From the NCBI RefSeq assembly GCF_005771535.1, contig NZ_VANU01000006.1, positions 62,001 through 126,000 on the forward strand: a stretch of 64,000 bases of DNA, in the 5' to 3' direction. The position numbers and the translations under genes are program-made. The notes under the pieces were generated by a model. That model was not told the DNA's origin, ran no database searches, and saw only the letters and a list, made by a program, of their open reading frames with translations. The stretch comes from Arcobacter arenosus. GTDB taxonomy: Bacteria; Campylobacterota; Campylobacteria; Campylobacterales; Arcobacteraceae. Of the stretch, positions 1,573 to 27,478 are shown piece by piece (position 1 is the first letter of the stretch; the number at the start of each line of letters is the position of its first letter).

Positions 1573-1630
1573 TGGTACCGCTAGTCGGACTTGAACCGAC
1601 AAGACCGAAGTCACCGGATTTTGAATCCGG
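1573..1630 (-). pseudogene. tRNA-Leu(CAA), 3' half, left by element insertion
   Basis: Read on the minus strand this gives an anticodon loop TTCAAAA (anticodon CAA) with its CCGGA/TCCGG stem, a long variable arm, a T arm GTCGG-TTCAAGT-CCGAC, the acceptor strand TAGCGGT and an encoded ACCA end. The sequence to its right (1631 onward) no longer matches a D arm or a 5' acceptor strand, so the gene is broken. The missing 5' half is at 26254-26294. Joining the two gives an 85-base canonical class II tRNA-Leu. Confidence 0.9.
1617..1630. repeat. attL core
   Basis: GATTTTGAATCCGG is repeated exactly at 26254-26267. The similarity continues for GTGTT after one mismatched base, giving 20 bp in all. 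The core covers the anticodon loop and one side of the anticodon stem, a favoured target of tyrosine integrases. Confidence 0.88.
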
Positions 1631-1743: not shown

Positions 1744-1762
1744 TTGTGTCCTGTTTTGTGTC
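1744..1762 (+). repeat. Left-end TTGTGTC repeats (probable integrase arm sites)
   Basis: TTGTGTC occurs at 1744-1750 and 1756-1762, just upstream of the integrase start. The same heptamer occurs twice at the right end (26183 and 26196) with similar spacing. Short direct repeats inside both ends are what arm-type binding sites of tyrosine integrases look like. Their place before int would also allow autoregulation. Confidence 0.55.
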
Positions 1763-1776
1763 TTAAAGGGTTTTGA

Positions 1777-3084
1777 ATGTACTTAAAATTTGATTTAAAA
1801 AAATATAATACGAGTGGACTTTCATATAAAGATGATGGTCAAATTCCAAAAAATAAGATAAAAAATGGAAAGATTATAAATACTTCATCAATAAAGTTTT
1901 TATATCCTTATAAGATTCAAGTTCGTGCTAATAAAATGATTAATGGTAAAAGAACTAATATAAAAAGAACATATGAATTTCCTCCTGATAAAACATTACT
2001 TGAAGCAGTAAAAGATTGTTCTCAACATTACATAAAACTTATGAAAGCTACTAATTTAGATAAATTTAAAAAAAATGAGATTACAGAATTTTCTTCTTTT
2101 GGAACAGTATGGAAACATTATTTAGATTATAAAGAACATCAGTACAAAAGTAGAGTTGATAAAAATGATTTTGATAGATTAAATAAAGAAAGATTTTATA
2201 ATAAATGGTTAAAAAATATTATAGATGAAATACCTGTAAATAAATTAACTAATGAGGATTTAGTAAAAGTAATATCTAAAATGAAAAATACTAAAACTGG
2301 TGAAGATTTAGCAGAAAGAACAAAAAGAACAGTTTATCAAACTGTTAATCCTGTTTATTCATATTTGAAAATGAAAAGAATTGTTATTGAGTCACCTGCA
2401 TCATTAAGTGGATTACCTTCTTTAAATAACACTCGAAAAATAAATTTATCAATCGACCAAATTAAAGATATTTTTTTGAAATTATATAACTATGATATTA
2501 AACCTTTTAAACAAATATTTATGTGGTTAATGCATGGACGTCGACTTAATGAAGTTTTAACTTTAGAATGGAAAGATATTGATTTTGAAGAAAAGATTTA
2601 TACGATTAGAGCATGTAATAATAAAGCTCGGATAGATATGATTTATGTTCTTACTCCACGATTAATAGAATCACTCAATCAATTACAAGTTAAAAAGTAC
2701 GGTTACATTTTTCCTGCTCTCACTGATAATAGTAAACCTATGTCAGACAATACATTACGTACACATTGGGATAAATTAGAGCTGCCAATAGTAAAGCATC
2801 AATTAAGAAACTGTATTCAAGTATATCTTAAAAATGTACATGCTATTTCGCGTGATATTGTTGATAGTATTATAGGTCATAAACAAACACAAAATGTAGG
2901 TGATAGATATGGTAATTATCAAGAAGAAATTTTAGCTAAAAAGTTAAACCTAATGCTAGATGAAATTTTTGATGATGATTATTCCGAAAAAATAGATCCA
3001 CAACAAGAAAAACTACATAAGTTAAAAGAAATTTTTCCTCACAAAGATGAATATTTTTTAAAAAAAATATTAGAATCTATTTAA
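1777..3084 (+). CDS. int: Tyrosine recombinase (element integrase)
   Basis: The 435-residue protein has an N-terminal arm-binding region (about 40-100), a core-binding SAM-like domain (about 105-200) and a C-terminal catalytic domain. The expected active-site set is visible: Arg in GRRLNEVL (near 256), Lys283, the HxxR box H341-R344, His368 in IGHK and the nucleophile Tyr378 in DRYGNY. It lies 150 bases inside attL and reads into the element. AAAGGG sits 6 bases before the ATG. It should catalyse integration into, and with a helper excision from, the tRNA-Leu(CAA) anticodon arm. TTGTGTC repeats overlap its upstream region. Confidence 0.95.
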   Translation: MYLKFDLKKYNTSGLSYKDDGQIPKNKIKNGKIINTSSIKFLYPYKIQVRANKMINGKRTNIKRTYEFPPDKTLLEAVKDCSQHYIKLMKATNLDKFKKNEITEFSSFGTVWKHYLDYKEHQYKSRVDKNDFDRLNKERFYNKWLKNIIDEIPVNKLTNEDLVKVISKMKNTKTGEDLAERTKRTVYQTVNPVYSYLKMKRIVIESPASLSGLPSLNNTRKINLSIDQIKDIFLKLYNYDIKPFKQIFMWLMHGRRLNEVLTLEWKDIDFEEKIYTIRACNNKARIDMIYVLTPRLIESLNQLQVKKYGYIFPALTDNSKPMSDNTLRTHWDKLELPIVKHQLRNCIQVYLKNVHAISRDIVDSIIGHKQTQNVGDRYGNYQEEILAKKLNLMLDEIFDDDYSEKIDPQQEKLHKLKEIFPHKDEYFLKKILESI

Positions 3085-4063: not shown

Positions 4064-4837
4064 ATGAGATTTAAAAATATTGTTGTAGTTAGTTCAAAAG
4101 GTGGTGTAGGTAAAACAGTTTTTGTTTTTCATATTTTATCATATTTATTAAGAAGAAAAAAATTTAGAATAATTGAAATTGATGACAATAATAATTCATC
4201 TTTATCTTTTAGTCAATCCAATTTATTAGAAAATAGAGTTACTTCATGTGATGTTTCTCAAGGATTTCAAAAGTTAGAAGAACTAGTAATTGAAAATATG
4301 TTTGAAGATGAATTAATTACTGTAATAGATTCAGGAGGTGGAAATGATAGTAAAAAAGTCATTAATAGTATTATTAGACAAGAGTTAACAACAAATACTC
4401 TATTTATAATTCCTTTTTTAGCTGATTTTAGTCAGATTTCTAATCTAATAGAAACTGTAGATCTAGTGAAAAAATATAATTATGCTGTAGTTATAAACAA
4501 TATCAATCTAAGTGATAAAAATGATTTAATGTTTATTGATGGAAATGATGATTTTGAAATTCAATCGTTTAAAAAAATTTTTGATAATTTTTTTATTATC
4601 GAAAAAACAAATCTTTTTTCTTATTCTACTTCAAGATATAAAACTACAATTTATGATTTTGCACAAAGAGCTTTTAAATTTAATCAAAATGAAATACTTG
4701 AATTTGCAAAAAAAGAAACATTTGGTGAAAAAACAGCAATGTTAAATATTTATAGAGACTGGAAAATTTCAAGATTAGCAAAAGACTATTTGTTAAATTC
4801 GAATATTAAATTGTTAGAGGATTATATAAATGAATAA
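4064..4837 (+). CDS. ParA/MinD-family ATPase (VirC1-like)
   Basis: The 257-residue product has the deviant Walker A KGGVGKT near residue 14 with the signature lysine, and a Walker B-like strand (LITVIDSGGG). This is the ParA/MinD P-loop family, which forms ATP-dependent dimers on DNA or membranes. In an integrated element with a relaxase it could act like VirC1, bringing the relaxosome to the coupling protein, or stabilise the excised circle. It has AAGGAG before the ATG and overlaps the next gene by 8 bases. No ParB homologue is recognisable nearby, which favours a transfer role. Confidence 0.75.
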   Translation: MRFKNIVVVSSKGGVGKTVFVFHILSYLLRRKKFRIIEIDDNNNSSLSFSQSNLLENRVTSCDVSQGFQKLEELVIENMFEDELITVIDSGGGNDSKKVINSIIRQELTTNTLFIIPFLADFSQISNLIETVDLVKKYNYAVVINNINLSDKNDLMFIDGNDDFEIQSFKKIFDNFFIIEKTNLFSYSTSRYKTTIYDFAQRAFKFNQNEILEFAKKETFGEKTAMLNIYRDWKISRLAKDYLLNSNIKLLEDYINE

Positions 4838-5315: not shown

Positions 5316-5663
5316 ATGAAAGATTATACAAAAATTATTATTCAAACTTTTTCAGGAGTGTTTAACACTGGTAATATAAAAAATGAAACTGAAAGTTTTA
5401 TTTATAATGATAACATAGAAAGAAGAAGAATTACTTCAGATATAACTAATACATGGTGTAAAATTAGTGTTGAAGAGGATTGTATTAAAGAATTAAATAT
5501 AGTTTCGGGTGATTGGGATAAAGATGCTGATATAATGTATTTTTATATGAATAAATATCTTCACAATCATAAAGATTTTATTAGTTTAAATAAACAAATA
5601 AAATTACAATCAAAAGAAATTTTTTACTATCTACAGAGTTTAAATGATGTTAAGTATATCTAA
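5316..5663 (+). CDS. Unknown protein before the relaxase
   Basis: The 115-residue product has no membrane segment and no motif I recognise. It is mildly acidic with a helical C-terminal half. GAGGT lies 8 bases before the ATG, and the gene overlaps the relaxase start by about 17-20 bases, so the two are probably translationally coupled. In related mobilization operons this place is taken by relaxosome accessory factors; that is the only hint to its function. Confidence 0.65.
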   Translation: MKDYTKIIIQTFSGVFNTGNIKNETESFIYNDNIERRRITSDITNTWCKISVEEDCIKELNIVSGDWDKDADIMYFYMNKYLHNHKDFISLNKQIKLQSKEIFYYLQSLNDVKYI

Positions 5664-8490
5664 TATGTCACCCGAAGCTGTTGCTAATTATCATGATGAA
5701 GATAAAAACTATTATCATGAAGATGAACTTCAAGGAAAATGGCAAGGTCAAGGAGTGGATAATTTAAACCTTCGAGAATTTAACTATAATGATTTCAAAA
5801 GACTTTGCAATGGGATTCATCCTTTTGAAGATAAGGTATTAGTAGATTCTTCAAAAAGAGCAGGAACTGACTTAACTTTTTCTGCTCCAAAATCAATTTC
5901 AATTTTGATTGAAATTTCAACTAAAGAAATAGAAAAGGAGATAAGACTAGCTCATGATATTGCAGTTAAAAATACTTTATCTTATATAGAAAAAGATTAT
6001 GCACAAACAAGACAACAGCTTTTTGGTATTAGAGAAGTATTAAATACTAAAAATTTACTGATTGCAAAATTTCAACACGACATTAGTAGAGAACTTGACC
6101 CACAGCTTCACACTCATGCATTTATTTTGAATTTAACACAAAAAGGAAATAGTGAATGGAGAGCATTACATAATGACTTATTATTTAAAAACAAACAATT
6201 TTTTGGACAAATTTATAGAAATGAATTATCACTAAATATTAGAAAAATGGGGTATGGAATTGAAATAACTGATGTCAAAAATGGTTTCTTTGAAGTTAGT
6301 GGGATAAGTAAAAAATTGATTAATGAATTTAGCAAAAGAACAGAACAAGTAAATAATAGTTATGAAGAATTAAAAAGAAAGTTTCCAAATTTTAATGAAT
6401 GGAAATTAAGAGAAATGGCAAAACTTGATTCTAGAAAATCAAAAAATAAAAAGATGAATAGGGTAGAAATTAAAAAAAATAATTTATACAGAGCAGAATC
6501 TATAGAAAATGTTGATAATGTATTAGATAGTGTTAAATTTAAAAATTTTAAAAATAAGAAATTAACATTAAAACAATATTTTGATATTGCAAAAGAAATA
6601 TTAACTAACAAAGAATCAGTTTTTACTAAAGAATTGCTATTGAGAGAAGTGATGAAATTATCGATAGGAGAATATAGGCTAGATGATTATTTAGAAGAAT
6701 TTACTAAAGATAAAGAACTTATTAAATTAGATAAAAATGTTTATTCAACTTTAGAAATAGTTAATATTGAAAAAGAAATTCTAAAAAAAATAGAATTATA
6801 TAAAAATAGTTTTAACTCTATTTCTTCAGAAAATCAATTAAGTTCTTTTATTGAAAGAAATTTTTCAAAAATGACAAAAGGACAAAAAACTTCTTTTATA
6901 AATATTTTAAATAATAACGACTTAATATGTACAATTCAAGGTGATGCCGGTTCCGGGAAAACTTACATGCTTAGAGCAGTAGAAAAATTTATTAATGATA
7001 AATCATCTATTCAAGGATTATCTTTTACAGCAAAAGCTTCCTATGAGCTTGAAAAAGAGTCAAATATAACATCATCAACTCTTAATACTTTTTTTAATCA
7101 GAAAGAATTTAAAAATAATCAAATTTACATAGTTGATGAAGCATCAATGTTGGGTTCTAAACAAATAAAAGCTTTGATTGATAAGGCTATAGAAACAAAC
7201 TCAAGAATTGTTTTAGTTGGTGATATTAAACAATTTCAACCAATTACTGCAGGTGCAATTTTTGAACAATTACAAAAAGAAGGTTTAATAAAAACTAGTT
7301 ATATGAACGAAACAATTAGAGCAAATACTATTATCATGAAATCTTTGTATTCTGATGTTAAGTCAAAAAATATTGAATCTGCTTTTAAAACATTAGAATC
7401 TAATTCTCTTATTATTGAATCAAATAATTTAGATGAAATAAAAAATGAGTATTTAAAAGATTTAAATCATTCACTTCTAATTGTTTCAAAAAATACAGAT
7501 AGAATTATCTTAAATAATCTAATAAGAAACTCTTTAATTCAAAATAAGTCAAAAAGTAGATTAATCTATACTAGAGAATCAACTAATTTAAATGAATTAG
7601 AAAAACATTTTTATAGATACTATAAAGAAAATCAAACTGTGATTATTAACAAGGGGATAAAAGGACTTAAGGCAGGAACTCAAGGAATAATTAAATCCAT
7701 AGATTCTAATTCGAATAGTATTCTAATTTATGCAAATGAAAAAAATATAATTATTGATTTAAAGAAAGATGGTCAAAAGATATCAACATATGAGAATTTA
7801 AAAAAAGAATTTGCTATTAATGAAAAAATCATATTTACTAAAAATAACAAAGAAATAAATATTAAAAATGGTCAAACTGCTAAAATTATAGGATTCAACA
7901 AAAATATTGTGTATGTGGAAAAAGACAATAATATAATTTCAATAGACACTAATGAATATAACTATTTTGATTATTCATATGCAATTACGGATTATAAATC
8001 ACAAGGACAAACTTCAGAAAAAGTAATAATATTGACTGATGCAGACAGAGCTAATACAAATTCTTTGTATGTGCAGATTACAAGAGCAAAAAAAGAAGTA
8101 AAAATTTTTACAAATTCTATAGACCGATTAAAAATAAATGCAGTTAAATCTCAAGCAAAAAGTACAACAATAGAATATTTTAGAACAAAAGTTATAGAAG
8201 AAAAAAATCAAAATGAAGGATTACATTATGAACAAGTTACAAGAAAATCAATTATTAGTATATTGGGAGAATATGGAGAAAAGCTTAGAGTTAAATTTGG
8301 AACTATCTCAAATGATATTAAAAATTTTATTAGAGGAAAAAAATATCTCTCAGAAGAGTTTAAAGTTGATATTAGAAAAAACAGATACAGAATTAATGAA
8401 CTTAGAAAAGAAAAAGAACTTAATGTAGTTAGAAACCTTATTGATAATTTAAATAAAGATAAATCATTAGAAATTGGGCAGGGATATTAA
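5647..8490 (+). CDS. MOBF conjugative relaxase-helicase (TrwC/TraI family)
   Basis: The N-terminal 280 residues are a TrwC relaxase domain. It begins MLSISNMS, has tyrosines in NYHDEDKNYYHED that would cut the nic site, the family motif LTFSAPKSIS, and the metal-binding three-histidine set (QHDISRE then QLHTHAF, near residues 144-157). The C-terminal part is an SF1 helicase with Walker A GDAGSGKT (near 437), VDEASM, YKSQGQT and YVQITRAKKE. It nicks oriT, stays bound to the 5' end and unwinds the strand to be transferred. An ATG one codon earlier (5644) is possible; 5647 fits the family's usual start. At 947 residues it is normal length. Confidence 0.93.
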   Translation: MLSISNMSPEAVANYHDEDKNYYHEDELQGKWQGQGVDNLNLREFNYNDFKRLCNGIHPFEDKVLVDSSKRAGTDLTFSAPKSISILIEISTKEIEKEIRLAHDIAVKNTLSYIEKDYAQTRQQLFGIREVLNTKNLLIAKFQHDISRELDPQLHTHAFILNLTQKGNSEWRALHNDLLFKNKQFFGQIYRNELSLNIRKMGYGIEITDVKNGFFEVSGISKKLINEFSKRTEQVNNSYEELKRKFPNFNEWKLREMAKLDSRKSKNKKMNRVEIKKNNLYRAESIENVDNVLDSVKFKNFKNKKLTLKQYFDIAKEILTNKESVFTKELLLREVMKLSIGEYRLDDYLEEFTKDKELIKLDKNVYSTLEIVNIEKEILKKIELYKNSFNSISSENQLSSFIERNFSKMTKGQKTSFINILNNNDLICTIQGDAGSGKTYMLRAVEKFINDKSSIQGLSFTAKASYELEKESNITSSTLNTFFNQKEFKNNQIYIVDEASMLGSKQIKALIDKAIETNSRIVLVGDIKQFQPITAGAIFEQLQKEGLIKTSYMNETIRANTIIMKSLYSDVKSKNIESAFKTLESNSLIIESNNLDEIKNEYLKDLNHSLLIVSKNTDRIILNNLIRNSLIQNKSKSRLIYTRESTNLNELEKHFYRYYKENQTVIINKGIKGLKAGTQGIIKSIDSNSNSILIYANEKNIIIDLKKDGQKISTYENLKKEFAINEKIIFTKNNKEINIKNGQTAKIIGFNKNIVYVEKDNNIISIDTNEYNYFDYSYAITDYKSQGQTSEKVIILTDADRANTNSLYVQITRAKKEVKIFTNSIDRLKINAVKSQAKSTTIEYFRTKVIEEKNQNEGLHYEQVTRKSIISILGEYGEKLRVKFGTISNDIKNFIRGKKYLSEEFKVDIRKNRYRINELRKEKELNVVRNLIDNLNKDKSLEIGQGY

Positions 8491-8491
8491 A

Positions 8492-10078
8492 ATGAGAAAT
8501 AATAGTTTTTATTTGTTACTAATTACATTGATTTTTAATAAATATCTAATTGAAAATATTTTTTTAATTTATTATAGAGAAGATAGGAATCTATTTATTT
8601 TTTTCTACCTATTACTTTTTATAATCGAGTATATATTTTATATTTATTACATTTTTGAATATAAAAAAGTCAATGATAGAGTTTATTTTTTTAGGTCATG
8701 GATGATGGGTTCATATTCAAATTTTTTCTCACAAACTGAAGGAAATAAATGGACATCTTCAAAAATTGTAAAAGAACGATTGAAGTATGGGGATTTATAT
8801 ATAAACAATTTTAAGTTTGATGATGATGTTATTAATAAATTTTATTTTTTTTCTTTGAGGAAAAAATTTGAAAATTTTAAATGTAAAATTAATACAAAAG
8901 ATTTAACAAAATCAACTATAGTTTTTGGACAAATGGGAAGTGGTAAATCAGAATTCTTATATTCTTTATTAAAACAAAATACTATGAATAGGTATCTTAT
9001 CTTTGATTCTAAAGGTGATTTTACACAAAAATTTTATTCAAGTAAAAGAGATATAATCTTAAATCCTTATGATTCCAGATCTTCTATTTGGAATCCTTTT
9101 GAGGAAGCTGAATTAAATCCTTATATTGTAGAAATCTTCTTCACAAACTTATTAAATTCAATTGCTGGAGATAAAAAAGATTTTTTTTCTGCTTCCACAA
9201 AAGAAAGGTATATGGATATTTTTTATGAAGTATTATATAAAAAATCAGAATTGAATGCAAAACAAAAACTTAGTATTTATGTTAAAGAATTAAAAAGATA
9301 TTTTTCCGAAGTTTCAAAAAGTAATTCTAAATCAGAAAATGATGTTATATCAACTATGAAACTTTTATTTGAATTTATTGAATACATGGATTTTAAAGTT
9401 CAAAATGGATGTAAAACATTTACGATTAGTAATTTTATTATAACAAATAATAGTAAATTGTTTTTGTTAGCTAGGGATGATTTAAAAAGTAAATTAAATC
9501 CTTTTTTTACAGCTTTTATAGCAATTTTTGCATCCATACTTTTATCAAGACCTGATAATAAAGCAAATTTAACAGGTTTATTTTTAGATGAATATTTAAC
9601 TTTTGCAAAAAATTTAGATGAAGAAACATTAGAAGGTTTACATACAAGAATAAGAAGTAAAGGAGGATGTTTAATTACTGCTATTCAATATTTTCCTAAG
9701 GCTAAATATGAAGAATTAACACAAAAAATATTAAATTCAAGTAATTATTTGTTCCTCTTTCAAGGAATAGATACATATACTTTAGACATAATTAATAAAA
9801 CTGTTGGAAAAGTTAGATATAAGAAAGATAGTTTAAAAAAGAATAATAAATCTTTTTATAATAATGAAAGTTTTAATACAGAGGAAACAAATTTACTAAA
9901 TACAACTATGTTTCATAGTTTAGCTGAAAAATTTGAGCATATTACATATATACCATCTAAAAAATTACTTTACAAAGGCTATACTAATGAAATAAAATCA
10001 GTTAAGAGAAATTTAGCATTTGTATTTGATAAAAAAAGTTTATCTAGATTTTATAGAGAGTATAAAGATAAAAATTGA
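8492..10078 (+). CDS. Type IV coupling protein (VirD4/TraD-like)
   Basis: The 528-residue product has two N-terminal membrane helices (about 5-55) and a cytosolic ATPase domain with Walker A GQMGSGKS (near 150), FDSKGDF, Walker B LFLDEYLTF (near 366) and the following ITAIQ motif. This is the VirD4/TraD/TrwB family, hexameric pumps that link relaxosome to secretion channel. The chosen ATG has GGGA 7 bases upstream and lies one base after the relaxase stop; a longer frame from 8474 would overlap the relaxase. With no channel genes present, it must dock onto a helper T4SS. Confidence 0.9.
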   Translation: MRNNSFYLLLITLIFNKYLIENIFLIYYREDRNLFIFFYLLLFIIEYIFYIYYIFEYKKVNDRVYFFRSWMMGSYSNFFSQTEGNKWTSSKIVKERLKYGDLYINNFKFDDDVINKFYFFSLRKKFENFKCKINTKDLTKSTIVFGQMGSGKSEFLYSLLKQNTMNRYLIFDSKGDFTQKFYSSKRDIILNPYDSRSSIWNPFEEAELNPYIVEIFFTNLLNSIAGDKKDFFSASTKERYMDIFYEVLYKKSELNAKQKLSIYVKELKRYFSEVSKSNSKSENDVISTMKLLFEFIEYMDFKVQNGCKTFTISNFIITNNSKLFLLARDDLKSKLNPFFTAFIAIFASILLSRPDNKANLTGLFLDEYLTFAKNLDEETLEGLHTRIRSKGGCLITAIQYFPKAKYEELTQKILNSSNYLFLFQGIDTYTLDIINKTVGKVRYKKDSLKKNNKSFYNNESFNTEETNLLNTTMFHSLAEKFEHITYIPSKKLLYKGYTNEIKSVKRNLAFVFDKKSLSRFYREYKDKN

Positions 10079-10185: not shown

Positions 10186-13100
10186 TTGACATTGTTTAAC
10201 TCACTTAAAAAGAAAATAGAAAAAGAATTAGAAGGTTCAATTTATAAAAATAATATTTATAAAGAACTTAAATGGGATTTTATAGAATCATATATTGTTT
10301 CATGGTCAAAAAATTATATTTTACAAATATTTAAATATTTTCTATTTTTCTATTTATTATTTATTAGTATAACAATTCTTTTTGAATTATTACGATTTTT
10401 TCAAGTGATTGATTTCTTTCTTTTTTTTAAAAAAAATTTAGATTTTAAAGATACTATATTTAATGGACAACTTACGATATTAGCTGTAATTTTTCCTTTA
10501 GTTATTGGATTTGTTGGTGTACTTATTAAAGATGATATTGCAAATAAGTCTTTGTGGAAAATTTATAATAGATATTCAGGATTTATGTTAGTTGGCTTTA
10601 GTGGACTTTCTTTAAGTGCAATTATAATTTTAGATAATTACTTTAAACCTTTTCTAATTGATGAATTAAGTATTGTAATTTCATTGATTTACAGTTTTTG
10701 GTTTTTATTAAATTTATTATTACTTAGTTGGCTTCTTCATTCAACATTTAATTTTATAAACAAAACTAAACAAAATGAAATAATTAAAAAATATACTACA
10801 AATATAGTTTTAGAAGAAGAAATTAGAAAAAGACTTTATTCCTTGATTCCCAAAATTCCAGATAAATTAAGTTTATTACCAACAAGTATTAATGCAAATC
10901 AAAAAATCTCTTTTCATTTTTTTGAAAAATCTAAAGATAACCTAGATAAAGTTTCTAGAAAATTTAAAAAAAAACAATATTTATTAGATATTAATTTTAC
11001 TTTTTTATCACTAGCTATAAAGTTATGGATGTTTAGAAATTCATATTTTTTAATTAAGGAAAATATGGAGCTTTTTTTACCAACTACAGTTGATGGATAT
11101 TCTTATAAAGATTTTGACTTAGCTTTACTTAAAAATGATAAATTTACAGTAATAGAAAATTTTTTAATTAGGCGTAGTTACAAGTTTATTTCTAATAATC
11201 CATTTGAAGATGATGATGTTGAAAATATTGTAAATTCTTTGTTTAATAATATTGATAAAGCTATAAATTCAAATAATCAAAGACTTTTTGATGATGAAGA
11301 AGAAACTTTACGAGATTTTTTACAAACTATATTTAGTATAACTTCATTCATTAATGATGAAGGTAAAATCGATAATTGGTTATTACTATCTAATAATTCA
11401 TTTTTCTCTCATAAACTATATTATAACCTATTAAGTGAATTTTATTCATTGAATAAAATTCTTATTTCTAAAATAATATCAGAAGATTATTTTTACAGAA
11501 GTCTATCTAGTTTTTATCCTTATTCTTTTAGTAAACAAGGTGAGAAACTTCATCATGAAATTCAAAAGGGATTGATGGAATTACATGTAGATTTATGGAT
11601 TAATTTATTAAAAGAAAATAGAAGAAAAGAAATTTCTAATCTTAACAGTCTTTTAAAAACATATATAGGTTCATGGGAGTCTTGGGGTAGTAAATATAGT
11701 GAGTTTGAAGAAAATTGGGAAATTATTTCTAACTACTCGAATGTTTTATTCGATCACCTTATTTTATCTAATAGTCTAATTATTGAGTCTCTTAAATTTA
11801 AAAATTATGATGCATCAATTTGGAGTGTTAACATAGTTAATAATTGGTATTCTAACCAATTTTCAATGAAAAAGACACATATTGATTATCTTTGGAAAAA
11901 AGAAATTTTATCAACTTCATTTTTTTTAAAAGAGAAAGATGAAAAACTTTTGAAATTTATATTAAATAACAATGAAGAAAAACTTGAAGATGTATTTACT
12001 ATCGCTTTAAAAAATATTTGGTTTCAGTCAAAGGTAATTACTGCATCTTATATTTTCAATAAGAATTCAGATGAATTAACAACATTAGATAGAAAAATCA
12101 TATTTTCATTGATAAAGGGAGATAAAATAACACCTTTAGACGAAAAAGATTTTTCAAATGTATTTAATAATAATTATGCGTCGGAAATTTTAGAAACATA
12201 CTTACTTAATTTATATCCTTTTTCTAATATCACAAATAATGGTATCTCAAAAAAATTAATAAAAAAATTTAACAGAATACATGAAGAAGAACATATCTCT
12301 GGAAGAATTTATTCTGGATTTGGAGGAGAGAATATCTCCAATGTTAAAGATTGTATTATTGCTTTAATTATTTCAAATTCAAAAAATGAATTTAAAATAT
12401 CTGATTCTTTATATGATTTTATTTTTTCTGAATTAGTAGATATTCCTTTCAGAGATTCAATAATATCATATTTAGAAGAATTATTGGTTTTTGAAGTTGA
12501 AACAGAATCTAAGGTGAAAGCACTTTTAAATACAGAAAATATTCTGGATTTAATTAATAATTATAAAAAATCTATAAATGCAATTATAGATAAGATTAAA
12601 GATGCAACTGAAGAAGAAGTTTATAATACACCTATTAATGAAAGTCGAATTGTTGAACTAAAAAAATATCTGTCAAAAAGTGCATTTAAAAAAGATGATT
12701 CTATATTACCACTAAAGTTATTTAATTCAGTAATAGAAGTTGAAGAAACAAAATATGAATCACTAAAATTAAATATTCAGGGTATTAATAAAAGAGATTT
12801 AATAAGTAATGAAATAAATAAATCTTATGAAGAAGACACATATTCTGAATTAATGAATAAACAAGTATATATAAAACTTTTTAGAGATATTTTTAATAAA
12901 ATTGATTATAAAAACAAAGAATTTATTTCAGAAGAAGATTTAATTATAAATATCCTGAGAGATAAAATACTAATTAAAAATAGTATTATATTTATTGGCT
13001 CAAATAAAGTAAGAAGTTATTTAAGAAAATTAATATGGGAAAATAATGATAATGTACCTTTTACAGTTAAAAATGCAAATACAATTGAAAATGATTATTT

Positions 13101-13353
13101 ATGCCACATTAATGATACTCCTGTATACTCAATTTATAATTTTAAAATAGATTTTTGTTTATTGATAAATTTAGACATATTTAAACAAGTTGAAATTAAA
13201 GTATTTGATAATAAATATTTCGTAGACCTTAAATTTATGGAGTATGAAGATAAGACAAATTCTGGTTTATTACAAATTGAATATTCAATTGAATCTATTT
13301 TTAATAGTAACTATGATTGCTACAAATATACATTAGCTGAAGAGAATGTATAA
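10186..13353 (+). CDS. Large membrane protein of unknown function (1055 residues)
   Basis: Four hydrophobic helices fall in the first 190 residues (around 45-67, 100-122, 130-150 and 160-190). A cytosolic region of about 860 residues follows, with no motif I recognise, rich in Asn, Lys, Ile and Trp-containing helices. The start is a TTG, at 10186 or 10192; no in-frame ATG lies near. Spacing from the coupling protein (107 bases) suggests its own transcription. The next gene, 29 bases on, encodes an ADP-ribosyltransferase-like protein. Neither belongs to known transfer machinery, so they are probably cargo. A defence or toxin-immunity role is speculation. Confidence 0.7.
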   Translation: MTLFNSLKKKIEKELEGSIYKNNIYKELKWDFIESYIVSWSKNYILQIFKYFLFFYLLFISITILFELLRFFQVIDFFLFFKKNLDFKDTIFNGQLTILAVIFPLVIGFVGVLIKDDIANKSLWKIYNRYSGFMLVGFSGLSLSAIIILDNYFKPFLIDELSIVISLIYSFWFLLNLLLLSWLLHSTFNFINKTKQNEIIKKYTTNIVLEEEIRKRLYSLIPKIPDKLSLLPTSINANQKISFHFFEKSKDNLDKVSRKFKKKQYLLDINFTFLSLAIKLWMFRNSYFLIKENMELFLPTTVDGYSYKDFDLALLKNDKFTVIENFLIRRSYKFISNNPFEDDDVENIVNSLFNNIDKAINSNNQRLFDDEEETLRDFLQTIFSITSFINDEGKIDNWLLLSNNSFFSHKLYYNLLSEFYSLNKILISKIISEDYFYRSLSSFYPYSFSKQGEKLHHEIQKGLMELHVDLWINLLKENRRKEISNLNSLLKTYIGSWESWGSKYSEFEENWEIISNYSNVLFDHLILSNSLIIESLKFKNYDASIWSVNIVNNWYSNQFSMKKTHIDYLWKKEILSTSFFLKEKDEKLLKFILNNNEEKLEDVFTIALKNIWFQSKVITASYIFNKNSDELTTLDRKIIFSLIKGDKITPLDEKDFSNVFNNNYASEILETYLLNLYPFSNITNNGISKKLIKKFNRIHEEEHISGRIYSGFGGENISNVKDCIIALIISNSKNEFKISDSLYDFIFSELVDIPFRDSIISYLEELLVFEVETESKVKALLNTENILDLINNYKKSINAIIDKIKDATEEEVYNTPINESRIVELKKYLSKSAFKKDDSILPLKLFNSVIEVEETKYESLKLNIQGINKRDLISNEINKSYEEDTYSELMNKQVYIKLFRDIFNKIDYKNKEFISEEDLIINILRDKILIKNSIIFIGSNKVRSYLRKLIWENNDNVPFTVKNANTIENDYLCHINDTPVYSIYNFKIDFCLLINLDIFKQVEIKVFDNKYFVDLKFMEYEDKTNSGLLQIEYSIESIFNSNYDCYKYTLAEENV

Positions 13354-14094: not shown

Positions 14095-14439
14095 TTGAAT
14101 ATTGAAAAATTAAAATCTATATTAAAGAAATTCTCAGAAGAAAGAGACTGGGAACAGTTCCATTCTCCTAAAAATCTATCTATGGCATTAAGTGTAGAAG
14201 CTTCAGAGTTAGTTGAAATATTTCAGTGGCTTACAGAAGAGCAATCTTACAATCTAAATGAATCAAAAAAACAACATGCAAAAGAAGAAGTTGCTGATAT
14301 AGCTATATATTTACTTAGAATATGTATGAAACTAAACATTAATTTAGATGAAGCAATTATTGAAAAAATGAAAAAAAATGAAGAAAAGTATCCTGTAGCA
14401 AAAGTTAAAGGTTCTGCAAAAAAGTATACTGAACTATGA
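14095..14439 (+). CDS. MazG-like nucleotide pyrophosphohydrolase
   Basis: The 114-residue product is a single all-helical MazG/RS21-C6 domain. It carries EASELVEIFQW, containing the first acidic metal-binding set, and HAKEEVADIAIYLLRI, the second (ExxD). Such enzymes cleave nucleoside triphosphates, often dCTP or altered nucleotides, to monophosphates. The start is a TTG behind AAAGGA. Its stop overlaps the ATG of the next gene (ATGA), so it is coupled to the nuclease-helicase. In that setting it may change a nucleotide pool or remove a nucleotide signal. Confidence 0.85.
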   Translation: MNIEKLKSILKKFSEERDWEQFHSPKNLSMALSVEASELVEIFQWLTEEQSYNLNESKKQHAKEEVADIAIYLLRICMKLNINLDEAIIEKMKKNEEKYPVAKVKGSAKKYTEL

Positions 14440-16331
14440 TAGTTTATAAAAAAACAAAAAAACAATTTTTAGAAGATGTATTAGTTAATGATATTGAAAT
14501 TGAAGATATTATTGCTAATGCAGTTGAAGTTAGCTTAGGTAGAAAAACAGCGAAGAATGAGTATATATCTTGGAAAAACTCATTAAATGAAATGGCCAAA
14601 GTTTTATATAGTGATAAAATCCCTAATGACTCAAATGTTTCAATAGAATACAATATCCCAAGAACTGGGAATAGAATTGATATCATAATTTCTGGTCAAG
14701 ATAAAAACAATGTTGATAAAGTTGTAATCATTGAGTTAAAACAATGGAGTGAAGCTGAACTTACTTCAAAAGATGGAATTATAAAAACTTTTTTAAATAA
14801 AGGTCTTAGAGAAACTACTCATCCTTCTTATCAGGCATGGTCTTATGTAAAACTACTTGAAGGTTTTAATAAAGTTGTTGAAGTTGAAAACATTAAATTA
14901 ATTCCATGTGCTTATTTACATAACTACACTAATGATAATGTATTAAAAAATGAATTCTATGGAAACTATCTATCAAAAGCACCAGTATTTATTAAAGGTG
15001 AAAGAAGTTCTTTAATTGATTTTATATCATCACATATTTCTAATGGCGATAAAAATGATGTAATGAGTAGAATTGATAATAGTAAAATAAGACCTTCTAA
15101 AACTTTAGCTGATTCAATAAGTTCTATGATTAAAGGTAATGATGAATTTACAATGATAGATAACCAAAAAATTGTTTATGAAACTGCATTACAATTAGCT
15201 AGAAAATCTGATAAAAGAAATAAAAATGTACTTATCGTTCATGGTGGGCCAGGTACTGGAAAGTCAGTTATTGCAATTAATTTATTAGCCGAACTTACAA
15301 AAAAAGGTTTTAACTCTAGATATGTAAGTAAAAATGCTGCTCCTAGAACTGTATATGAATCAAAACTAACTGGTACGTTAAAGAAAACAGAAATATCTAA
15401 TTTATTTACTGGTTCAGGTTCATTTGTTGACTGTGTTGAAAATTCATATGATTGTCTTATTATTGATGAAGCACATAGAATGAATGAAAAGTCTGGACTA
15501 TATGGAAATTTAGGAGAGAATCAAATAAAAGAGTCTATTTACTCTTCTAAATCAGTAATATTCTTTTTAGATGAGGATCAAACTGTTACATTTAATGATA
15601 TCGGTGAAGAATCTGAAATAAGAAAATGGGCAGAGTATTACAATGCAAATGTAGAAGTTATGGAATTAACTTCACAGTTTAGATGTAATGGTTCTGATGG
15701 ATATTTAGCTTGGCTTGATAATGTTCTACAGATTAGAGAAACTGCAAATACCACGTTAGATTTAAATGAATATGATTTTAAAATATTTGATAATCCAAAT
15801 GATTTAAGAGATGCAATATATAAAAAGAACAAAATCAATAATAAAGCAAGACTAGTTGCTGGTTATTGTTGGAACTGGGACAGTAAAAAAGATAAAAATC
15901 AAATGGACATTCATATTCCTGAATATGGATTTGAAATGCAATGGAATTTAAATACAGATGGAAGCCTTTGGATTATTAAACCTGAATCAGTTGAACAAAT
16001 TGGATGTATTCATACTTGTCAAGGATTAGAAGTAGATTATATAGGAGTAATTATTGGTGATGATTTAACTTATGAAGATGGAAAAATAGTTACTAATCCA
16101 ATAAACAGAGCAAGAACTGACCAATCTTTAAAAGGTTATAAGACTAGACTAAAAGAAGCTATAAAATCAAACGATATTCAAAGAGTAATTGAGATAGAAA
16201 CTAAGGTCAATAAGATCATTAAAAATACATATAGAACGTTAATGTCTAGGGGAATGAAAGGTTGTTATATATATTGTGAAGACAAAAAACTAATTGTACA
16301 ACTAAAAAAGGTTTTACAATGTATTCACTAA
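14436..16331 (+). CDS. DUF2075-family helicase with N-terminal nuclease-like domain
   Basis: Residues 1-150 show a PD-(D/E)xK-like pattern: RIDIIISG, then VVIIELKQW near residue 100. The middle has a P-loop (VHGGPGTGKS, near 270-279), Walker B LIIDEAHRM (near 342-350), FLDEDQ and the SQFRCNG motif of the COG3410/DUF2075 group. The end has HTCQGLEVDY and PINRARTDQS, like SF1 helicase motifs V and VI. It is 631 residues. It overlaps mazG upstream by 4 bases and the Gp88-like gene downstream by 13, so all three are one translational unit. Proteins of this group are often in defence islands; action on foreign DNA or RNA is inferred. Confidence 0.8.
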   Translation: MIVYKKTKKQFLEDVLVNDIEIEDIIANAVEVSLGRKTAKNEYISWKNSLNEMAKVLYSDKIPNDSNVSIEYNIPRTGNRIDIIISGQDKNNVDKVVIIELKQWSEAELTSKDGIIKTFLNKGLRETTHPSYQAWSYVKLLEGFNKVVEVENIKLIPCAYLHNYTNDNVLKNEFYGNYLSKAPVFIKGERSSLIDFISSHISNGDKNDVMSRIDNSKIRPSKTLADSISSMIKGNDEFTMIDNQKIVYETALQLARKSDKRNKNVLIVHGGPGTGKSVIAINLLAELTKKGFNSRYVSKNAAPRTVYESKLTGTLKKTEISNLFTGSGSFVDCVENSYDCLIIDEAHRMNEKSGLYGNLGENQIKESIYSSKSVIFFLDEDQTVTFNDIGEESEIRKWAEYYNANVEVMELTSQFRCNGSDGYLAWLDNVLQIRETANTTLDLNEYDFKIFDNPNDLRDAIYKKNKINNKARLVAGYCWNWDSKKDKNQMDIHIPEYGFEMQWNLNTDGSLWIIKPESVEQIGCIHTCQGLEVDYIGVIIGDDLTYEDGKIVTNPINRARTDQSLKGYKTRLKEAIKSNDIQRVIEIETKVNKIIKNTYRTLMSRGMKGCYIYCEDKKLIVQLKKVLQCIH

Positions 16332-17506
16332 GTGACTTTAGTATAACAAAAGACTCTTTTTCATCTAAGGAAGAAATTCATATTAAAACAAGAATTGGTA
16401 TAAAAAAACAAAAAATCAATTTATCTGAACTTTTATCAAACTTATTAGATATAAAACAATATTCTAAATCATATGTTAAAACATTTAAAAAAAAGGTATG
16501 TGAATTAAAAGAAGATGAAATTTTAAATTTGAAGTTCAATTTAATACAAGAAAAACATACTGAACAAAAAATTAAAAAAACCAAAAATGATATTGAAAAA
16601 AATATTTCTCGCTTTCATTATAAAAATAATGACCAATTCAGAATTGGAATGTTATCACTTGCACCTAAATTATCTTCTAAAGTTGATATTTGTATAATGT
16701 CTGGAACATGTGAAAATTTTTGTTTAGGTTATAACATATCAAAAGAAAAAGAAAAAATAACTTTCAAGAATGATAATGGAATATTTTTTAAATTACTTAA
16801 AACAATAACTTTTTTGTATAAAACTGATATTTTTTTAGAAAATTTATGTTTAGATATTTTAAAATTTATTAGGTTAAAAAATCCAGTAATAAGATTAAAT
16901 GGTTATTCTGATATATTGTGGGAAAATATTAATATTTCAATTACACATAATTTGAAAGAAGAGATTTCAAAATTTAACAAAACTCATTTATATGAGAAGA
17001 ATATTGTTAATAAGTATTATTTAGAAAAGATTATTGATTTAGAAACTCCTATAAATAAAGAACTTATTATTGGAAAAGAGTATAAAATTTTTGAAATATT
17101 TTCAGGTATAATTTTCTATGACTACACAAAATATAATTCTACACAAAGAAAAAGTGCATCAAAATTTAGTAATTATTATTTAACTTATTCTTATGATATC
17201 CATATTGCAAAAAATAAAGAACATTTAGGAGTAAATACTTTATGTCTAATAACTAAGAAAGACTTCAAAGATAAATTATTATTGAATAAGAAATATTTAG
17301 ATTATAGTTTAATTGATGGCGACTTATCTGACTTTAGATTAATTGATGAACTAAATTGTAAATCAAAAAAATTAATATTACTTGAAGCTGTAAGTCCTAG
17401 TAATAATATTTCGAAGAGAGAAGAAATAGAGTCATCTCCTTTTGTATTAAAAGATATTGGAGATTTAAAAAATATTTTAGAAGTTAATGATGATATTATA
17501 CAATAA
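16319..17506 (+). CDS. Gp88-like cysteine-motif protein
   Basis: The 395-residue product resembles from memory the phage Gene product 88 family. A cysteine cluster CIMSGTCENFC (near residue 125) follows LAPKLSSKVD. Later come RLNGYSDILWE (near 193), where the family has an RLNGTSD box, and FYDYTKYN (near 263) followed by a YLTYSYD strand. Three closely spaced cysteines could bind a metal or Fe-S cluster, which is inference. The first 90 residues are a lysine-rich extension. RBS AAAAGG is inside the previous gene, with a 13-base overlap. Function is unknown; it is tied by operon structure to the nuclease-helicase and MazG. Confidence 0.6.
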   Translation: MYSLSDFSITKDSFSSKEEIHIKTRIGIKKQKINLSELLSNLLDIKQYSKSYVKTFKKKVCELKEDEILNLKFNLIQEKHTEQKIKKTKNDIEKNISRFHYKNNDQFRIGMLSLAPKLSSKVDICIMSGTCENFCLGYNISKEKEKITFKNDNGIFFKLLKTITFLYKTDIFLENLCLDILKFIRLKNPVIRLNGYSDILWENINISITHNLKEEISKFNKTHLYEKNIVNKYYLEKIIDLETPINKELIIGKEYKIFEIFSGIIFYDYTKYNSTQRKSASKFSNYYLTYSYDIHIAKNKEHLGVNTLCLITKKDFKDKLLLNKKYLDYSLIDGDLSDFRLIDELNCKSKKLILLEAVSPSNNISKREEIESSPFVLKDIGDLKNILEVNDDIIQ

Positions 17507-25708: not shown

Positions 25709-25986
25709 AGAAAAAAGTTTCAATAAAACTAAAAGAAAAAAGTCAAAATACTCCAATAAAAAGAGTAGTATTTAGAAACAAACTTGAATCAAACTCAGAA
25801 TCTATGATAAATATTCATACTTTTAATAATTATGACTCAAAAGTCTTTTCAAAAGATCAATTAATTAAGTTACAAAGAATTAAAAATTTAGTGACAAAAA
25901 AAATTAATGGAAGAATTCGTAATTCGTATAAAATTCAAAAAGATTGGATTATAGATGATTCTGAAATTAGTAATATCAAAAAATAA
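25705..25986 (+). CDS. Small basic protein, unknown
   Basis: The 93-residue product is rich in Lys, Arg, Asn and Ser with no hydrophobic segment. The first 35 residues are probably disordered and the last 50 helical. AGGAG precedes the ATG, which overlaps the stop of the JAMM-motif gene, so they form a two-gene unit at the element's right end. I do not recognise it; a nucleic-acid-binding partner of the JAMM protein is only a guess. Confidence 0.6.
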   Translation: MKKKVSIKLKEKSQNTPIKRVVFRNKLESNSESMINIHTFNNYDSKVFSKDQLIKLQRIKNLVTKKINGRIRNSYKIQKDWIIDDSEISNIKK

Positions 25987-26078
25987 ATTTATGATTTAAT
26001 GAGCTTGACTCTCAAATTAATTAGCAAATACTTAATTTAAGATTTTATATTTATTTAAATAAAGTGTATATTATCTAA

Positions 26079-26164
26079 TGGTACCGCTAGTCGGACTCGA
26101 ACCGACACGCTCAAAGAGCAAGAGATTTTGAATCTCTCGAGTCTACCAATTTCTCCATAGCGGC
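26079..26164 (-). tRNA. tRNA-Leu(CAA), complete, carried by the element
   Basis: On the minus strand the 86 bases fold fully. The acceptor is GCCGCTA/TAGCGGT (with a G1-U72 wobble), the D arm GAG...CTC with TTGGTAGA, the anticodon arm AGAGA-TTCAAAA-TCTCT (anticodon CAA), the long variable arm GCTC-TTT-GAGC, the T arm GTCGG-TTCGAGT-CCGAC and an encoded ACCA. It has the same anticodon as the split host gene but different anticodon stem and variable arm. It lies inside the right end, on the element side of the TTGTGTC repeats. Confidence 0.93.
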
Positions 26165-26182
26165 TTGAAAGGTTTAATTAAT

Positions 26183-26202
26183 TTGTGTCCCTAAATTGTG
26201 TC
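26183..26202 (+). repeat. Right-end TTGTGTC repeats (probable integrase arm sites)
   Basis: TTGTGTC occurs at 26183-26189 and 26196-26202, with a related ATGTC(T) at 26205 and GTGTCTC at 26230. The left end has the same heptamer twice, 12 bases apart. Their position between the complete tRNA and the right core marks this stretch as element DNA. Confidence 0.55.
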
Positions 26203-26253
26203 CTATGTCTTTAAACGCACTATTTATTAGTGTCTCATGCTAATTAATAACTA

Positions 26254-26267
26254 GATTTTGAATCCGG
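26254..26267. repeat. attR core
   Basis: GATTTTGAATCCGG is identical to 1617-1630. To the right the sequence continues into the host tRNA 5' half; to the left it departs at once from the host stem sequence (CTA instead of CCG). Confidence 0.88.
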
Positions 26268-26294
26268 CGTGTTTACCAATTTCACCATAGCGGC
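26254..26294 (-). pseudogene. tRNA-Leu(CAA), 5' half, left by element insertion
   Basis: Read on the minus strand: acceptor GCCGCTA, the D arm GTG...CAC with TTGGTAAA, then the anticodon stem and loop GCCGGATTCAAAATC, after which the match to a tRNA stops. It pairs with the 3' half at 1573-1630 to rebuild one tRNA-Leu(CAA). The host tRNA promoter, further right, would still transcribe through this fragment into the element. Confidence 0.9.
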
Positions 26295-26369
26295 ACCTAA
26301 TAAATTAAGGATGAAATTTTATCCGTTATTTAATTAATTTATGTTTAATTTTTAAAAAATTAGGAATTA

Positions 26370-26401
26370 AAAAAGGGCCTATCTTTCGATAGACCCTTTT
26401 T
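26370..26401 (-). terminator. Terminator of the HU gene
   Basis: AAAAAGGG(C)CTATC-TTTC-GATAG(A)CCCTTTTT is a strong hairpin with one internal mismatch and T runs on both strands. It ends hup on the minus strand. Confidence 0.85.
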
Positions 26402-26422
26402 ATAATTATTAAGAAGTAGTAA

Positions 26423-26698
26423 TTATTTAGCTACTGCTTCTTTTAAAGCTTTACCAACTTTGAATTTTGCTACAGTTGTTGCTGGTACTGTAACAGTTTT
26501 GTCAGTTCCAGGAACTTTTGCAGTTCTCTCAGCTCTATCAGCAGTACTAAAAGTACCAAATCCGATGAAACTAACAGTTTCTTTTTTTACTAAAGTCTCA
26601 GTAATAGTATCTAATACAGCGTCAACTGCACCTTTAGCATCTTTTTTAGATAAACCAGCTTTTGCTGCAACTGCATCAATAAATTCAGCTTTGTTCAT
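26423..26698 (-). CDS. hup: DNA-binding protein HU
   Basis: The 91-residue product is full length for the HU/IHF family. It has MNKAEFIDAVAAKAGLSKKDA, the VSFIGFGTFSTADRAERTA saddle strand and the arm region ending in TVAKFKVGKALKEAV. HU dimers bend and compact the chromosome. AAGGAGT lies 11 bases before the ATG, and a strong terminator follows. It is the first intact host gene right of the element. The DNA-binding arm (about 55-72) has an Ala and Thr-rich tip. Confidence 0.95.
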   Translation of the reverse strand: MNKAEFIDAVAAKAGLSKKDAKGAVDAVLDTITETLVKKETVSFIGFGTFSTADRAERTAKVPGTDKTVTVPATTVAKFKVGKALKEAVAK

Positions 26699-26816
26699 AG
26701 AAGAACTCCTTGTGTAAGATTAAAATATCAGTAAACTTTATAGTATATTTCCTTTGAAATAGCTAAAACTAGGGGCTTTCATAACTTATTTTCTATAAAT
26801 ATAGAAAAAATTGTTA

Positions 26817-27392
26817 TTAATATGATGATTTTATGCTTAAAAGTCTGCAAGAGTTCTCTAAAATTGCTACTCTTTTAACTAAATTATTTATGTCTCTATC
26901 ATATACATATGTACCAATTCCTCTAATTACCATTACATGATTATTAGTTTCTTTCAGGTATTTTGTAATCTCTAAAGCATTTCTATCATACCAACTGTCG
27001 AAGTTACCAGGGTCATAAATATTGATTTTACCAAATGTAGTTTTACCGAAATAATCATCTAATATAATTTCATCATGGTCAAAGGTATAAGCTGTTGTAT
27101 AAATAGGAACACCAAAGGCAATATATTTTGCTTCGTGGATATTAGTATAAATAGTTGAATGTATATCTGATTCAATACTTGCAATATTCCATCTATAATC
27201 TTTTTTATTCATTGTTAGCTTACAAAATGATCTTTCATCCATTTCATCAAAAATCGCATCTGATGTATTTATAATAAATGAGTTATGGTCAACTTTTGCA
27301 GATATTGCACCATGATATATACCAAAGAAATTTTTTCTAAACATAGTAAGAGATAAATTGGATAAAAGTTTTACAGTATTTGGATCAATCAT
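26817..27392 (-). CDS. Class II aldolase/adducin-like protein
   Basis: The 191-residue product resembles the class II aldolase/adducin fold of FucA- and AraD-type enzymes: FFGIYHGAISAKVDHNSFIINTSDAIFD at the N-terminus and IRGIGTYVYDRDINNLVKRVAILENSC at the C-terminus. The usual triad of zinc histidines is not clearly complete; HGA and HE in NIHEAKYIAFG are candidates. It is divergent from rsmH with a short intergenic region. The sugar-phosphate substrate, if any, is unknown. Confidence 0.6.
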   Translation of the reverse strand: MIDPNTVKLLSNLSLTMFRKNFFGIYHGAISAKVDHNSFIINTSDAIFDEMDERSFCKLTMNKKDYRWNIASIESDIHSTIYTNIHEAKYIAFGVPIYTTAYTFDHDEIILDDYFGKTTFGKINIYDPGNFDSWYDRNALEITKYLKETNNHVMVIRGIGTYVYDRDINNLVKRVAILENSCRLLSIKSSY

Positions 27393-27478
27393 TATTAAAA
27401 AACCTTAAATAAAATTTTGGGTAGAATATTATATCAAATAGCGATTAAAATACTAAATTGCTTTAAAAGGCTTAATGA

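Follow-up and report, generated by a model that had tools for sequence, protein, structure and literature searches.

A 24.6-kb element in Arcobacter arenosus splits the tRNA-Leu(CAA) gene of its host, shares too short a core with that gene to rebuild it, and carries a whole substitute gene just inside attR that very probably supplies the tRNA instead. The window analyzed here is the whole stretch of 64,000 nucleotides surrounding the element, and it belongs to a host genome of 3.13 Mb (18 contigs, 99.98% complete). ARAGORN called a single tRNA in the window, the carried replacement tRNA-Leu(CAA) of 86 nt at 26079..26164 on the minus strand (RF00005, 53.7 bits), and its acceptor, anticodon and T stems all pair in the predicted fold. 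As the original prediction had placed it, the intact tRNA lies in the right end on the element side of a pair of TTGTGTC repeats (26183/26196). It is encoded on the same strand as the broken host gene, 89 bp downstream of the 5' half of that gene.

The broken host gene is represented by a 3' part on the attL side (1573..1627, minus strand; 82% match to the 3' part of the carried tRNA) and a 5' part on the attR side (26254..26294, minus strand). Read from the sequence, the insertion is precise and falls in the anticodon loop, as joining the two flanks at the core produced a clean 85-nt tRNA-Leu(CAA) in ARAGORN. The longest exact identity between attL and attR is the 14-bp att core GATTTTGAATCCGG, with its left copy at 1617..1630 and its right copy at 26254..26267. 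Because the two sites share only these 14 exact bases, integration cannot rebuild the host gene, and ARAGORN found halves only, with no whole tRNA, at either junction. Reading the two halves as a split, two-piece tRNA was rejected because 24.6 kb separate them and the tRNA also exists as a complete copy.

The sequence GATTTTGAATC occurs on the plus strand at 1617, 26124 and 26254, which amounts to three copies against 0.18 expected (three copies were obtained in 0 of 100 shuffles). The original prediction attached special meaning to this overlap between the att core and the carried anticodon loop. The overlap is real, but every tRNA-Leu(CAA) of this group should have the anticodon loop TTTTGAA, and this accounts for most of the GATTTTGAATC copy within the carried tRNA. 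A motif search also identified arm-type-like repeat pairs at both ends, one of TTGTGTC on the left (1744..1762, plus strand) and TTGTGTCC on the right (26183..26203, plus strand), the latter with its repeats 13 bp apart. Across the window TTGTGTC is no more frequent than chance (5 copies, 4.96 expected), with four of the five copies forming the close pairs 1744/1756 and 26183/26196 beside the two element ends. Motifs of this kind were also observed to the left of the integrase in G033, another genus of the family, and on the Sulfurimonas-related contigs L191 and L193. The conserved right neighbor of the tRNA site is a gene for an HU-type DNA-binding protein (26423..26698, minus strand; PF00216, 103.2 bits).

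An RF00005 search of the host genome returned 42 tRNA genes, and ARAGORN, applied to the stretches covering these matches, called 42 tRNAs of which four were leucine tRNAs: CAA (the carried copy), TAA, GAG and TAG. The carried gene is the only tRNA-Leu(CAA) found (1 of 42) among the 150 first-look candidates scored per genome, a depth at which a poor tRNA could be missed. That the element splits a single-copy tRNA gene and brings its own, as the original prediction proposed, is borne out by this count, and the carried tRNA likely replaces the host tRNA functionally.

The carried tRNA and the rebuilt host gene are identical at 70 of 86 aligned positions, including the whole acceptor and T stems. 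Assigned by hand to the tRNA arms, the 16 differences fall in the anticodon stem (6), the variable region (6), in or beside the D arm (3) and in the T loop (1), in agreement with the predicted combination of a shared anticodon with a different anticodon stem and variable arm. Since 12 of the 16 differences cluster in these two regions, and a related idea is raised for phages in PMC10865867, the altered stem and arm could be imagined to evade a tRNA-cutting defense nuclease, with disruption of the host gene being incidental. We regard this as very unlikely: the anticodon loop is unchanged, the only isotype carried is that of the disrupted gene, and the anticodon stem in G003 and G033 differs little from that of the host.

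The host gene itself can be recognized in relatives. The flank on the HU side (26265-27400) matched 55 of the 60 genomes searched, the own genome included, and 30 loci were examined from it. Twenty of these contained tRNA-Leu(CAA) and ten lacked it within the locus; a second 5' half was present in three of the twenty (G000, which is the own genome, G003 and G033), and the other 17 had a single copy. In eight of the nine element-free congeners the gene matches the carried tRNA at 70-76% and the broken host gene better, at 82-89%; the ninth, G001, is level (70% and 69%, respectively). Among other genera, G029 (94% to the host gene vs 79% to the carried tRNA) and the first tRNA of G110 (82% vs 73%) are also nearer to the host gene, and G016 is nearer to the carried tRNA (75% vs 79%). 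By these identities, the gene in element-free congeners is of the host's own type. The converse reading, in which the halves would be foreign and the carried tRNA native, was rejected because eight of the nine congeners resemble the halves. The original prediction took the carried tRNA to belong to the element and not to this place in element-free relatives, and the host-type gene standing there agrees with it.

The same tRNA was expected at the ends of related elements, and the right-end design indeed recurs in four other genomes of the family (G033, G072, G089 and G003), each with a whole tRNA, arm-like repeats, the host 5' half and the HU gene. In G033 (a closed genome), the HU site is likewise occupied by an element; its integrase is 50% identical to that of the window, and the two host halves are both present. 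Its flanks, when joined, produced an 84-nt tRNA-Leu(CAA) in ARAGORN, its attL and attR share 13 exact bases, and in its right end TTGTGTAC/TTATGTAC repeats and then the second core come after a complete tRNA-Leu(CAA). G072 and G089 contain closely related elements with right ends as in the window, carried tRNAs that are identical at 84 of 84 positions, and element ends with 93% and 96% identity over 5.3 and 3.3 kb. No integrase was detected by Pfam among the 8 (G072) and 4 (G089) element proteins scanned, and the tRNA is still intact in both. G003 also has a right end as in the window, with AAGCGTCC repeats; no relative of the integrase was detected there at E<=0.001, nor could its left end be located. 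The exact two-core pattern was present in 4 of 398 genomes of the order, a list from which G003 is absent. As a separate observation, the common ends of the G072 and G089 elements (loci L165 and L166) enclose different middle cargo, pointing to cargo exchange between conserved ends: by Pfam, SbcCD-, OLD-, HNH- and AbiEii-type proteins in G072 and ABC-three-component proteins in G089.

All five occupied sites with a visible right end (own genome included) have an intact carried tRNA, although G003, G072 and G089 were noticed through tRNA patterns, and G033 alone through its integrase, so that the intact tRNAs of those three are partly by construction. The carried tRNAs of G033 and G089 are identical at 76 of 84 positions (90%) and their broken host genes at 61 of 86 (71%), which indicates that the carried tRNA moves with the element.

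These sites also bear on whether the carried tRNA is a passenger, i.e., an unselected leftover of an older nested or tandem insertion that was kept by chance or by homology-based recombination. Compatible with such an origin are the left ends in G072 (L165, 2300-2700 and 15259-15500) and G089 (L166), which contain a broken chimeric tRNA followed by a second core. In this chimera, accompanied by arm-like repeats, a host-type 3' part and a carried-type 5' part meet at the core, suggesting the footprint either of recombination at the carried tRNA or of an older element. G110 (L164) can be read likewise, as it combines an intact, host-type tRNA-Leu(CAA) (8316-8400) with a second tRNA 1.25 kb away (9648-9734) that is 90% identical to the carried tRNA of the window (79 of 88 positions). 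A single GACACAA repeat precedes this second tRNA and no second core was seen nearby; it is possibly a remnant left by an element. However, the carried tRNA is intact, with an unvarying position and orientation, in five genomes that represent three genera (three of these genomes having been found via the tRNA), and the host gene is rebuilt at none of the five right ends. We therefore consider a passenger origin quite unlikely, and favor the carried tRNA as a substitute for the gene that the element splits.

The original prediction further proposed that the carried tRNA could be a second recombination target. The G072/G089 chimera provides a hint in this direction, suggesting that recombination at the carried tRNA has occurred. 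The carried gene shares 11-12 bases with the att cores in the own genome and 11 in G033. Its diverged anticodon stem would make it a poor target for the element's own integrase, and this limited core sharing may keep the integrase off the carried gene in the own genome.

The original prediction also considered what loss of the element would do to the cell: with an essential tRNA held hostage by the element, a cell losing it without precise excision would die. Several observations are consistent with lethal addiction of this kind: no CAA gene other than the carried copy was found, all five occupied sites with a visible right end retain an intact tRNA (partly by construction, given the tRNA-pattern finds), and in silico recombination between attL and the core in the carried tRNA of the own genome left no tRNA that ARAGORN would call. 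Against it, the same mis-excision in G033 did produce a called tRNA, and a mis-excision "lock" is therefore not general; in silico recombination between the carried tRNA and attR in the own genome also produced a called tRNA. Moreover, the closed genome G012, of the same genus, has no tRNA-Leu(CAA) among the 46 Rfam tRNA matches obtained at the same depth of 150 candidates. Six of these 46 are of long-arm size and were called by ARAGORN as Leu TAA, Leu TAG, Leu GAG, Ser, Ser and Tyr, and no remnant of tRNA-Leu(CAA) was seen at the site. G004, G006 and G015 likewise appear to lack tRNA-Leu(CAA), by two patterns and by reading of the site, with no remnant seen, and none was found by the patterns alone in G011 (91% complete, no match to the HU flank). 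The strict tRNA pattern missed a real CAA tRNA in G060, so its blanks alone are not proof of absence.

UUG codons are rare, accounting for 68 of 8147 codons in 17 chromosomal ORFs (and for 52 of 6177 in 12 element ORFs). The tRNA-Leu(UAA) that is present here should read UUG by wobble, and leuX is dispensable in E. coli. Lethal addiction was downgraded because G012 shows no such tRNA, and we now deem it unlikely; of the original claim, the splitting of a single-copy tRNA gene and the carriage of a substitute stand, and essentiality is not supported. The apparent lack of the tRNA in G012 also means that the pressure to replace the host tRNA may be weak, and loss of the element without precise excision may cost the cell fitness. 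Beside the HU gene, four loci of same-genus genomes (L084 in G006, L085 in G015, L086 in G012 and L088 in G004) seem to have lost tRNA-Leu(CAA) without trace, which makes them a natural test of whether it is dispensable.

For the substitution to work, the integrase would first split the host tRNA-Leu(CAA) gene, and since the core is too short to rebuild that gene, the element carries a whole tRNA-Leu(CAA). Placed in line with the broken 5' half, on the same strand and 89 bp downstream of it, the carried gene could take over the host gene's transcription and supply tRNA-Leu(CAA) after integration. We infer that the carried tRNA is transcribed, charged and of benefit to fitness. The original promoter of the host gene could serve the carried tRNA, and a promoter of its own is also possible. 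Rebuilt tRNAs are expressed from the original promoter with few exceptions, according to PMC8371274 (citing Williams 2002). A promoter scan of 25900-26800 returned a chance-level number of hits (5, with 4.1 expected), and a terminator scan found nothing above chance and called none in the interval that separates the carried tRNA from the broken 5' half.

The gene content of the element is that of an integrative island that is probably mobilizable. Besides its att sites, it encodes a tyrosine integrase of 435 aa (1777..3084, plus strand; PF00589, 36.8 bits) with relatives at 50% identity in G033 and 42% in G121, and a TrwC-type relaxase with a helicase domain (5644..8490, plus strand; PF08751, 247.9 bits), a combination expected of integrative and mobilizable elements. 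A ParA/MinD-like ATPase (4064..4837, plus strand; PF01656) precedes the relaxase, and a TrwB/TraD-like coupling protein (8474..10078, plus strand; PF10412, 119.1 bits) follows it. Among the 23 element proteins scanned, Pfam detected neither phage structural families nor conjugation-channel families; 10 of the 23 match no family, and the protein at 16319-17506 was assigned to GP88, whose name derives from a gene product 88. The integrase search pattern hit 188 stretches in IMG/VR, none of which encodes a relative. Other cargo identified by Pfam includes a Schlafen-group helicase, endonuclease I, an impB/mucB/samB-type polymerase and an McrBC component adjoining an AAA protein. The Schlafen group 3 helicase-domain protein (14436-16331) lies downstream of a MazG-like protein and was matched in PADLOC by AbiO, Nhi and PDC-S41 (50-53 bits), making it possible defense cargo. 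Just after the coupling protein, a 1055-aa protein (10186-13353) without Pfam or PADLOC match has hydrophobic stretches near its N-terminus, as judged by eye.

A more distant relative of the integrase appears to act differently. Three contigs from Sulfurimonas/Sulfurimonadaceae MAGs (L191, L193 and L194) encode integrases of the same group, and on each of them a 3' half of tRNA-Leu(CAA) extends up to the core; the right ends of L191 and L193 lie beyond their contigs, and no tRNA half was seen at the left end of the Arcobacter contig L192. Another contig of the L194 assembly contains an intact tRNA-Leu(CAA) with two GGGTATC repeats 3' of the gene; next to the L194 integrase these repeats occur in complementary form, as GATACCC. 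The displaced 3' half on L194 and this intact gene are 92.5% identical over 67 bp, and HsdM and specificity genes are found on one of the two contigs and HsdR on the other. From this arrangement on two unjoined contigs, the Sulfurimonadaceae relative (L211/L194) appears to rebuild the tRNA classically from a carried half. It has GATACCC instead of TTGTGTC repeats. The integrase group thus looks to use two modes, no rebuilding and classical rebuilding, again with the contigs of the classical case unjoined.

In classical islands within tRNA genes (tDNA), as described for Islander, attP carries a fragment that restores the target at one junction (PMC4383910). The A. arenosus island resembles them in being integrase-driven and in its tRNA gene site, but neither of its junctions restores the gene. 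ABGI1 of A. butzleri RM4018 is likewise an integrase-driven island in a tRNA-Leu, reported to have inserted into the gene's 3' end (PMC2147049). In G062, a tRNA-Leu(CAA) at C1:1324511-1324560 fits the published ABGI1 start of 1,324,568, a match by coordinates only (PMC2147049). Sites such as the one described here can be misread by island-finding methods that look for a rebuilt tRNA together with a fragment. Broader consequences are possible, though we would not yet favor them: Arcobacteraceae islands may be vehicles that replace a core tRNA, with the island tRNA taking over the native unit. Where the integrase is missing, as seems the case in G072 and G089, the foreign tRNA could become the permanent sole copy; the diverged anticodon stem would protect it from the island's integrase, and only precise excision would restore the host gene. 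Here a mobile copy has taken the place of a core tRNA gene, and the genus members that seem to lack tRNA-Leu(CAA) would allow the need for this tRNA to be tested.

The closest known parallel is tRNA-dependent lysogeny, published for actinobacteriophages including Fionnbharth, Gaia and others (Guerrero-Bustamante and Hatfull 2024, PMC10865867), whose authors ask how prevalent it is outside this phage group. Sharing its mode of integration, the island has a tyrosine integrase, an attB over a host tRNA gene, a short core without tRNA rebuilding and a whole tRNA of the same isotype, which in Gaia is also tRNA-Leu-CAA (PMC10865867). Table 2 of that study gives shared cores of 8-17 bp for non-rebuilding and 33-52 bp for rebuilding phages, placing the island cores (14 bp here, 13 bp in G033) within the former range and below the latter. 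Related phage integrases are also split between the two modes, e.g., Omega and Gaia (PMC10865867), so that related-integrase phages rebuild the tRNA as the Sulfurimonadaceae relative appears to do here. Prophage Lj965 of Lactobacillus johnsonii, according to the same study, does not rebuild its tRNA and carries a cognate one, as the island does, but is a phage. A Sinorhizobium paper states that its group saw tRNA-dependent lysogeny for prophages similar to a Mesorhizobium phage. By its scanned genes the island is not a temperate phage forming lysogens, as it encodes a relaxase and a coupling protein and no phage structural family was matched among the 23 proteins; it thus lacks one defining feature of tRNA-dependent lysogeny, yet would work like it. 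A tRNA-replacing, non-phage element in Campylobacterota was not reported in the literature searched by title and the start of the abstract. Unlike the actinobacteriophages of PMC10865867, the element described here is a relaxase-bearing island in Campylobacterota, and its host tRNA seems dispensable in at least one congener. Its carried tRNA is positioned immediately inside attR, collinear with the host gene; the tRNA of Fionnbharth overlaps another phage gene and has its own measured promoter (PMC10865867). Overall, the tRNA-dependent principle is known from phages (PMC10865867), where it is proven, and what is new is its apparent extension to a non-phage, probably mobilizable island in another phylum, Campylobacterota, which suggests that the principle may be general among integrases that target anticodon loops.
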